Part shown: one piece after another, positions 4,474-6,019 of the stretch
Position numbering within the stretch: the stretch's first letter is position 1
Layout: the number at the start of each line of letters is the position of its first letter
Source: Cryomorphaceae bacterium
GTDB lineage: Bacteria; Bacteroidota; Bacteroidia; Flavobacteriales; Schleiferiaceae
Direction: 5' to 3'
Assembly (NCBI GenBank): GCA_020832345.1
Contig: JAFIEY010000104.1
Location: 1 to 41,133, forward strand
DNA: 41,133 bases
Position numbers and translations under genes: made by a program
Notes under the pieces: model-generated
Database searches by the model: none
The model's input: only the letters and a program-made list of their open reading frames with translations
What the model was told of the DNA's origin: nothing

Positions 4474-4779
4474 TTAATCTTCGTCAGGGGGAAAGCTGTC
4501 CATTCGATCACGGCAGGTGGTTGTTATCTGAATATAATTAACAACGGTGTCTTGGGGGTCTTTATCTACACCGTAATTGATTTGGACATCGTCATAATCT
4601 TCACACTCTTCTTTTTCTTTGATATATATAATATCGTAAAGGGGATTAGGTGCGGAATTTTCAGATTGGTCAACTGCATTACTTTCTATCATGCACCGAC
4701 AGACCTTTTTTTTGCTGCAACTAAATGCTAAAAAAGACATGAGGACAACGGATATAATGACGAGTAACTTTGCTTGCAT
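4474..4779 (-). CDS. Small four-cysteine lipoprotein (paralogue of the 5741 gene)
   Basis: About 101 residues from the ATG at 4779, chosen because it places a lipoprotein signal right at the N-terminus and puts a TATATTTG promoter box 22 bases upstream; an ATG at 4824 would run through that promoter. The signal MQAKLLVIISVVLMSFLAFSC ends in a lipobox-like AFSC. The mature part is acidic with a C-x-C pair (VCRC) followed by two single cysteines (EEC, TTC). The same C-x-C...C...C layout, with a shared N..PN motif and a following acidic cluster, occurs in the lipoprotein at 5741-6019. The family is not recognised. It precedes folC by 14 bases. Confidence 0.65.
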   Translation of the reverse strand: MQAKLLVIISVVLMSFLAFSCSKKKVCRCMIESNAVDQSENSAPNPLYDIIYIKEKEECEDYDDVQINYGVDKDPQDTVVNYIQITTTCRDRMDSFPPDED

Positions 4780-4800
4780 GGTTTTATGTTTTAGAATGTA

Positions 4801-4808
4801 CAAATATA
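4801..4808 (-). promoter_or_regulatory. Candidate -7 box (TATATTTG) for lipoprotein-folC transcript
   Basis: On the minus strand TATATTTG fits the Bacteroidota TAnnTTTG -7 box and lies 22 bases from the ATG at 4779. The nearest TTG upstream is only 13 bases away, shorter than the usual 17-23, so the -33 element is unconvincing. Confidence 0.4.
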
Positions 4809-4855
4809 GGGAAAATTTTTTCAACCTTATGGTTGATGATGAAAAACTTTTTCGA

Positions 4856-5731
4856 TTAAAGCAATAGCGTCTTAATTATTTTTCTATCGTCAAAACTTCT
4901 AAAATTAAATGTATTTACTACTTTTCCTGCCTTTGTTTGCAATATAACTGGAACACTTTTGGACTCGGACATGGAAAATACGGTTTGTGGGGGAAGCTGG
5001 ATATGCGGGAAAACACGCAGTTTTTGAAGATTAAAATAGGCCTCTGGATCTTTGAATGTACCTGCAAAAACCACTAAAACATCGGAATACTTTAAGGGTG
5101 TTTTTGCAACCGTATTATTTACTTTATGCATGGTAAAGCGGCAGTATTTGCAATTGGCGCTAATGAAAACCACCAATCTGTTTTCTATTTCACCATCGGG
5201 CAACGAGTCGTTCTTTATCCATTCGTAGAAAAAAGCCTCATCCAGATTACCTGTTTTATCAGCTTTTTGAAAAAATGGCAATAAATCAGGGGGTGATAGA
5301 ATATTGGGCAGTGCTATTGCCAAAATGATTGCAGGTGCATATACCCATTTTGGTAATTTCCACTTAATTGGCGAAACTGGGATTGTTAGAATGATTGCAA
5401 CTGTGAAGAAAAATAAAAATATCCAGATTTGGTTAACATTGCTACCGCGAAAATAAAAAGTACCGCTTGGTGAAATATTTACCGTCAACAATAAAACGAA
5501 AATTATGGCCAACCACTTGGTTATTTTGCTGGTGGTGTAGGTTGATATCCCTAACAAGTCCAGCAGGGGAAATAAAAGTAAGGTACTAAAAAACAAACGG
5601 ACAAGAAGAAAGCTTATCGCCAGTGATCCCGGTATATTTTGATAAAAAAAGGTATCTAAGATATCGAAGTAATCCGTTAGAAGATAAAATGCGCCTAAAA
5701 GTAAAAGCGACCGGATGGCAATTATAAGCAT
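4856..5731 (-). CDS. Membrane protein with C-terminal thioredoxin-like CxxC domain
   Basis: 291 residues. The first ~145 hold about four to five hydrophobic helices (around 3-20, 38-60, 72-86, 101-118, 130-147). After them comes a soluble domain in which VVFISANCKYC (187-197) gives a CxxC pair (C194, C197) at the end of a beta strand, as in thioredoxin folds. The layout resembles MauE/DoxX-like redox membrane proteins fused to a thioredoxin domain. By inference it transfers reducing or oxidising equivalents across the inner membrane to periplasmic cysteines. The upstream lipoprotein gene stops 9 bases before its start, and a related lipoprotein lies 76 bases downstream, suggesting that cysteine-containing lipoproteins are clients. 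Confidence 0.65.
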   Translation of the reverse strand: MLIIAIRSLLLLGAFYLLTDYFDILDTFFYQNIPGSLAISFLLVRLFFSTLLLFPLLDLLGISTYTTSKITKWLAIIFVLLLTVNISPSGTFYFRGSNVNQIWIFLFFFTVAIILTIPVSPIKWKLPKWVYAPAIILAIALPNILSPPDLLPFFQKADKTGNLDEAFFYEWIKNDSLPDGEIENRLVVFISANCKYCRFTMHKVNNTVAKTPLKYSDVLVVFAGTFKDPEAYFNLQKLRVFPHIQLPPQTVFSMSESKSVPVILQTKAGKVVNTFNFRSFDDRKIIKTLLL

Positions 5732-5740
5732 GCGTATAGA

Positions 5741-6019
5741 CTACTCTCCGTCTTCGGGTTCTCCGTTAAATTGATCATCATCAATGATTTCTTCGCAAAC
5801 CGCCATAAAGGGCTCTCCATTTTTATCATAAAAAGGGCCGCTGACATCCTCTTCACAATCACCTCCATCCGGCAGCGTAACAATGATCTCATTGGGCTCC
5901 GCATTGGAATTGGGGTCTGTAGGCGTGTTGGTGCACAAACAATCTACCCGTTTGTTGCATGCTGAAGCGATCAATACAAAAGCGAGGAGTGTCAGGATAC
6001 TAAGTATAATTTTCTTCAT
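5741..6019 (-). CDS. Small four-cysteine lipoprotein (paralogue of the 4474 gene)
   Basis: About 92 residues from the ATG at 6019; a longer frame to 6118 would run through the promoter and the sucB terminator. The signal MKKIILSILTLLAFVLIASAC ends in the lipobox ASAC. The mature protein is very acidic with cysteines DCLC, GDC and AVC, matching the C-x-C...C...C pattern of the 4474 gene. The family is not recognised. It is preceded by a well-formed promoter (6048-6076) and followed 9 bases on by the membrane thioredoxin-like gene, which points to a joint function. Confidence 0.7.
   Translation of the reverse strand: MKKIILSILTLLAFVLIASACNKRVDCLCTNTPTDPNSNAEPNEIIVTLPDGGDCEEDVSGPFYDKNGEPFMAVCEEIIDDDQFNGEPEDGE

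Follow-up and report, generated by a model that had tools for sequence, protein, structure and literature searches.

The question raised by this locus is what a membrane-bound, thioredoxin-like protein does between two very small cysteine-containing lipoproteins. The three genes are situated in a stretch of 41,133 nucleotides from a Cryomorphaceae bacterium, which is referred to here as the window. They had been regarded as a small envelope redox unit, in which a membrane thiol carrier is combined with dedicated lipoprotein partners. They form part of a neighbourhood of a membrane-anchored thioredoxin and tiny lipoproteins that is widespread in bacteria and apparently undescribed. Judged from sequence, the thioredoxin is probably a dedicated enzyme making or resetting the disulfide bonds of its lipid-anchored neighbours, and it is put forward here as a candidate for this function.

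Three genes on the minus strand

The open reading frames of all three genes were confirmed on the minus strand. Transcription would proceed from 6019 to 4474, with the following features:

5741..6019, minus strand: upstream lipoprotein, 92 aa; lipid cysteine 21, CxC at 27/29, Cys 55 and Cys 75; orthologues adjoin the same membrane gene in G001-G004
5732..5740, minus strand: 9-base spacer separating the upstream lipoprotein from the membrane gene
4856..5731, minus strand: membrane protein (P0002), 291 aa; eroded MauE/DoxX-type bundle (aa 1-145) and thioredoxin-like domain (about aa 180-291)
5297..5731, minus strand: membrane half, free of cysteines here; its counterpart in relatives contains NCGCFG/NCFCxG
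5141..5152, minus strand: CKYC with the redox pair C194 and C197 of the thioredoxin-like domain; both cysteines invariant in alignment A8 (46 sequences)
4474..4779, minus strand: downstream lipoprotein, 101 aa; lipid cysteine 21, CxC at 27/29, Cys 59 and Cys 89

The upstream gap is exactly 9 bases, as had been noted, and 76 bases separate the membrane gene from the downstream lipoprotein. The neighbouring genes are folC-like and sucB/sucA-like, as assigned from reading the sequence, and not folP-DUF1599-TPI. A Pfam search with the three window proteins gave no match of note. P0002 has four hydrophobic segments and its only cysteines are C194 and C197, in agreement with its earlier description as a polytopic protein with a CKYC thioredoxin-like domain.

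The features originally listed for the lipoproteins were found in part. The C-x-C pair soon after the lipid cysteine and the two subsequent single cysteines are present, giving five cysteines in each protein. The first three are spaced identically, C-x5-C-x-C; the subsequent intervals measure 25 and 19 residues in the upstream and 29 and 29 residues in the downstream protein. Lipoboxes are also present, but they are loose: the usual lipobox has L at -3, which neither window lipoprotein shows when read from the sequence. The N..PN/II motif, supposed to be a shared feature, is absent from the orthologues of the upstream lipoprotein at L007, L008, L009 and L010. The assumed paralogy of the two proteins was not confirmed either. 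BLASTP of the whole proteins against each other gave an E of 2e-6 in a single comparison, with an alignment that begins within the signal peptide, and a mature-only profile comparison gave a probability of 0.4%; hence, their relatedness cannot be shown from the mature sequence alone.

Conservation of the neighbourhood among Bacteroidia

A profile of the membrane protein found the gene in 8 of the 88 genomes of the family, own genome included, and in all eight a small five-cysteine lipoprotein adjoins it. The same three genes in the same order with the same flanks recur once more within the genus, in G003. In G001, G002 and G004 the membrane gene is paired with the upstream lipoprotein at another genomic place, and among the membrane-gene loci of relatives an orthologue of the downstream lipoprotein was seen in G003 only. 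The arrangement is lipoprotein-membrane protein-lipoprotein in G006, two lipoproteins upstream and one downstream in G067, and one upstream in G009. Twelve lipoproteins from family genomes could be aligned, with the lipid cysteine, the CxC pair and the two further cysteines invariant. The gene order is not unique to this genome; its exact form is shared with G003 and the association extends across the class Bacteroidia. According to sequence reading, the lipoprotein-membrane pair precedes a chain-length-regulator-like gene in three genus genomes (L007, L008, L009) and is not near folC and sucB.

In a sample of 395 Bacteroidia genomes, 67 contained a membrane-protein match at E <= 1e-20. When the own genome is set aside, 68 class matches remain. 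A lipoprotein is encoded on the same strand no more than 500 bp away at 49 of them, a contig end truncates the locus at five, and at 14, most of which belong to one family, there is none. A scan of a named genome collection, where 80 loci were retained from 246 relatives (almost all named as Bacteroidota or its subgroups), gave 59 loci with a lipoprotein, upstream in every case, four cut by contig ends and 17 without; class and named loci overlap (L061 and L125 are one sequence), therefore these counts are not independent. The background of lipoprotein-type ORFs more than 1.5 kb away was 1 in 95,772 bp in the class set and 7 in 454,581 bp in the named set, i.e. 8 in about 550 kb. As a conserved neighbourhood, the dedicated cysteine-containing lipoprotein partners of the original prediction are thus well supported. 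At L085, L087, L091 and L093 (family f56), the gene for the fusion of MauE and thioredoxin (MauE-Trx) was seen alone beside a sigma-factor-like gene, and several lipoproteins are encoded elsewhere in the genome.

Such lipoproteins were found at none of seven inspected loci of the BT_3928 type. They were likewise found at none of the 12 MauE-Trx loci inspected outside Bacteroidia (L207-L218), therefore the enzyme does not need the lipoproteins. Some MauE-thioredoxin fusions among these 12 loci are near glutamine-amidotransferase-like genes, as read from the sequence.

At the genome level, 59 of the 395 genomes contain both a MauE-Trx and the lipoprotein (E <= 1e-8), 33 the lipoprotein only, 8 MauE-Trx only and 295 neither, with kinship uncorrected in these figures. 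The lipoproteins form a multi-copy family. At E <= 1e-3, matches occur in 184 of the 395 class genomes, with up to at least 14 per genome, where the matches at this threshold may include signal-peptide-only matches and the per-genome counts are lower bounds. The 62 class genomes having both at this lipoprotein threshold hold at least 243 lipoprotein matches (median at least 3, maximum at least 14) and usually one MauE-Trx. No partner was nearby at 12 lipoprotein loci elsewhere in MauE-Trx genomes (L286-L297). The own genome gave five lipoprotein-profile matches at E <= 1e-3 in 4.03 Mb with a profile whose alignment included both window lipoproteins; two of the five flank this one membrane gene, which is more than chance.

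A lipoprotein family conserving its cysteines

Five cysteines and one lysine are invariant in all 94 aligned lipoproteins and little else is conserved, with no conserved histidine or methionine. Among 231 distinct mature sequences, four non-lipid cysteines occur in 217, six in nine, three in four and five in one, i.e. an even number (4 or 6) in 226. Two of the five odd-numbered sequences reach a contig end (L107, L276), one looks short (L118) and two do not resemble family members (L126, L137); the ORF pattern behind the counts, which comprised only a loose lipobox, the lipid cysteine and CxC, admitted a few odd ORFs. The even cysteine number, with extras added by two, suggests disulfides, though a four-cysteine metal site would also give four. 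The intervals after CxC span broad ranges, 21-52 and 6-33 residues, in a count that left out three ORFs not fitting the spacing pattern. Some lipoproteins show CxCC and six non-lipid cysteines, e.g. L054:2452-3190 and L259:4467-4673.

For one relative, L184, AlphaFold predicted a beta-beta-alpha-beta mini-domain (strands at 21-31 and 34-44, helix at 46-63, strand at 64-68) with block pLDDT values of 87-92 over residues 21-69. In this model the CxC pair would lie in strand 1, one cysteine in the helix and one in strand 3. A Foldseek search of the model against solved structures gave nothing at E <= 0.001 (best E 0.2), and no solved structures related by sequence to the lipoprotein profile were found. 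The best fold match in VIA-align (1vq3_A, Z 5.3, 54 residues, rmsd 3.2) was tied with many unrelated entries, and no family is claimed from it. Among the matches examined, no Pfam or NCBIfam model was over the cut-off for the lipoproteins. The PG1828 family lipoprotein (NF050142) is matched weakly by 68 of the 94 lipoproteins and was rejected as their identity: the stronger members examined (L301-L316) are acidic and lack the four cysteines, therefore the match is to the signal peptide only. Member 1 of A7 reached 17.9 bits with the PG1828 profile, compared with a cut-off of 50, and the window lipoproteins had no match. The match of window protein P0003 to NF053838 (Bd0108; E 6.7e-4) is below the cut-off and its matched stretch, 1-57, takes in the signal peptide, while a search for a phage origin of the lipoprotein gave no match.

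The two window lipoproteins share with this family the cysteine layout and the gene position beside the membrane thioredoxin, but they lack a match to the mature profile. With the signal peptide included, the family profile gave E values of 3.6e-7 and 1.8e-5; against the mature proteins it gave no match above chance (E 1.3 and 7), and profile-profile comparison was likewise not above chance (probability 0.4% and 1.0%). The mature-only values would fit unrelated replacements with the same cysteine spacing, in which case the neighbourhood is conserved and the partners are not homologous. Such a replacement appears quite improbable in view of the same position, the same C-x5-C-x-C spacing, the same total of five cysteines and the full-length matches. 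The window lipoproteins were accepted as partners because of position, five cysteines and identical spacing, and cysteine spacing together with gene position would constitute their link to the family. Three other lipoproteins of the own genome match the mature profile (E 3.7e-5, 3.5e-5 and 9.4e-4); no MauE gene was found beside them in the stretches read.

A membrane thioredoxin with an eroded bundle

AlphaFold modelled the window membrane protein as a series of helices leading into a thioredoxin-like domain, with block pLDDT values of 85-93 across aa 181-250. The best Foldseek match of the thioredoxin half was SdbA (5um7, E 4.1e-4), with ResA, Etrx and TlpA lower in the list, which also includes mixed-disulfide complexes of TlpA, with either ScoI or cytochrome oxidase subunit II as the partner. 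A ResA/TlpA-like thioredoxin fold and a CxxC are thus both found in the window protein, as indicated by the model, Foldseek and the invariant CxxC; a search for solved structures related to P0002 by sequence found none.

The proximity to TlpA bears on another explanation, namely that a metal such as copper or zinc is bound by the four lipoprotein cysteines, which the thioredoxin would hold in the reduced state. TlpA keeps ScoI and CoxB reduced in this manner and DsbD, a usual reductant source, is encoded in the own genome; the even cysteine number would fit a four-cysteine site as well. However, the widely varying spacing after CxC, the lack of a conserved histidine or methionine and the addition of extra cysteines in steps of two, as for disulfides, argue against metal-site maturation, which we regard as improbable.

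P0002 gave no match over the curated cut-off for MauE (PF07291), and a search of the own genome with this profile matched C238 and C134 only. The membrane half nevertheless belongs to a homologous bundle: the transmembrane halves of five window-genus proteins matched those of 141 relatives with a probability of 90% and an E of 1.6e-6 over 118 columns, in a single, remote comparison with a reversed control at E 0.24. The membrane protein of G006 matches MauE at 2.6e-15. It carries NCFCLG, as does that of G067, and NCFCFG is found in G009; none of the five window-genus proteins retains this motif or the MauE C-x-C pair, and P0002 has no cysteine outside CKYC. The notion of a membrane thiol carrier is therefore weaker than that of the conserved neighbourhood. 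In the window's genus the CxxC is kept but the MauE CxC has disappeared from the membrane half, which leaves only the periplasmic CxxC to carry thiols there. The second MauE protein in the window's genome, C238 (L299:766-1908, 380 aa), has CGCFG and is encoded beside a folP-like gene; inspection of the C-terminal half of this protein revealed no CxxC.

Similar changes were observed elsewhere. Among 26 inspected genomes with lipoproteins and no strong MauE-Trx match, 13 have a related thioredoxin near a lipoprotein (on the other strand in G283, 847 bp away in G337). Of these 13 thioredoxins, seven are short, anchored proteins (196-232 aa) in which two or three hydrophobic segments and a CxxC are found, but no CxC; L113 of the class set (229 aa, CTFC, no CxC) resembles them. 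In several other relatives the CxC is lost or replaced by C-x-x-C. On a poorly resolved tree of the thioredoxin domain, the state of the pair needs at least six changes; for this tree L098 and L182 were skipped, the fragments L111, L167 and L180 excluded and near-identical sequences dropped (163 to 138). The rule scoring motifs by position took L113, L111 and L180 as lacking the thioredoxin CxxC, of which L113 has CTFC, L111 has CPHC and L180 is a contig-end fragment, and the automatic CxxC label of L264 refers to a CIIC at a different site, within the membrane part. The thioredoxin domain retains its CxxC while the bundle is eroded.

A proposed disulfide enzyme or a possible thiol relay

The proposal we would give roughly an even chance is that the membrane thioredoxin is a dedicated disulfide enzyme for a client family of lipoproteins; catalysis, direction, quinone coupling and cysteine pairing are what we infer. 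The membrane protein would display its thioredoxin-like CxxC domain in the periplasm, near the site of lipoprotein lipidation, where it would catalyse formation or correction of the two disulfides knitting each lipoprotein mini-domain. The direction would be oxidation or isomerisation rather than reduction. In most relatives, the CxC of the fused MauE bundle would recycle the thioredoxin, probably against quinone. This pair is lost in the window's genus, therefore thioredoxin recycling must come from another source. Linkage, co-occurrence, the invariance and even number of the cysteines, several lipoproteins per catalyst, the kept CxxC and the SdbA/ResA/Etrx-like thioredoxin half count in favour of the proposal. 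The 14 class matches and 17 named loci without an adjoining lipoprotein count against it, as do the 12 lipoprotein-free MauE-Trx loci outside Bacteroidia and the mature window lipoproteins, which do not match the family. Moreover, thioredoxins related to ResA and TlpA by fold are mostly reductants, which counts against an oxidising role, and the presence of DsbD in the own genome, where a search found no VKOR, would suit a reducing one.

Alternatively, the lipoproteins might be lipid-anchored redox carriers that shuttle electrons or disulfides between the inner-membrane thioredoxin and other envelope targets. In lineages without the MauE pair, its role would pass to the lipoproteins or to another system. 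The limitation of conservation to the cysteines and a few residues would fit such carriers, as would the loss of the MauE pair on several branches with the lipoproteins kept; C-x-C pairs are also known in redox proteins. However, one to at least 14 lipoprotein matches per genome and catalyst, many of them distant, exceed the need for carriers, and in the compact model the cysteines are placed in strands and helix as structural disulfides would be. We therefore consider a relay rather unlikely. Slightly more doubtful still is the broader idea that the five-cysteine mini-lipoproteins of many Bacteroidia are mobile disulfide carriers, which in lineages like that of the window made the quinone-facing MauE pair dispensable. 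Formation or correction of disulfides is favoured over a relay, metal-site maturation or a chance replacement in the window because the CxxC is constant, several lipoproteins occur per catalyst and the compact fold contains an even number of cysteines.

Relation to known systems and significance

The BT_3928 family (NF045576) has the same fusion of a MauE/DoxX bundle to a thioredoxin-like domain, and 45 of the 46 sequences in A8 match it at E <= 0.01 (best 8.2e-21). In contrast, P0002 has no match at E 0.01 or E 10, and all seven inspected BT_3928-type loci show the order folP-DUF1599-MauE/Trx-TPI without lipoproteins (gene names by sequence reading). Likewise, 45 of 46 match PF07291 at E <= 0.01, the profile of MauE, which belongs with MauD to the methylamine dehydrogenase cluster. 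Here, however, a family of small lipoproteins is the candidate client and the thioredoxin is present as a fusion; the cysteine pair has been lost from the window protein, which also gives no PF07291 match. The best structural matches of the thioredoxin half are the membrane-anchored thioredoxins ResA, TlpA, SdbA and Etrx, from which the window system differs by its polytopic anchor and the linked five-cysteine lipoproteins.

One study speculates that MauE has a part in forming the disulfides of a partner, and describes MauE homologues near candidate peptide precursors in Streptomyces (PMC7794033); this is the closest published idea found. A DoxX-type membrane protein also forms a complex with a predicted thiol oxidoreductase, DoxX-SseA-SodA, in Mycobacterium tuberculosis, which has other partners and, as far as the available part of the source goes, no such lipoproteins (PMC6930017). 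Among the papers covered, the literature search found no account of the pair of membrane thioredoxin and five-cysteine lipoprotein.

Collectively, our analysis singles out a concrete pairing of a membrane thioredoxin with multi-copy lipoproteins that conserve little but their cysteines; the two occur together in 59 of the 395 sampled Bacteroidia genomes. Lineages in which the MauE pair has disappeared and everything else is retained represent a natural experiment on the purpose of the bundle. If the thioredoxin is indeed an enzyme with its own clients, the pair would provide a testable route of envelope disulfide chemistry in these bacteria.
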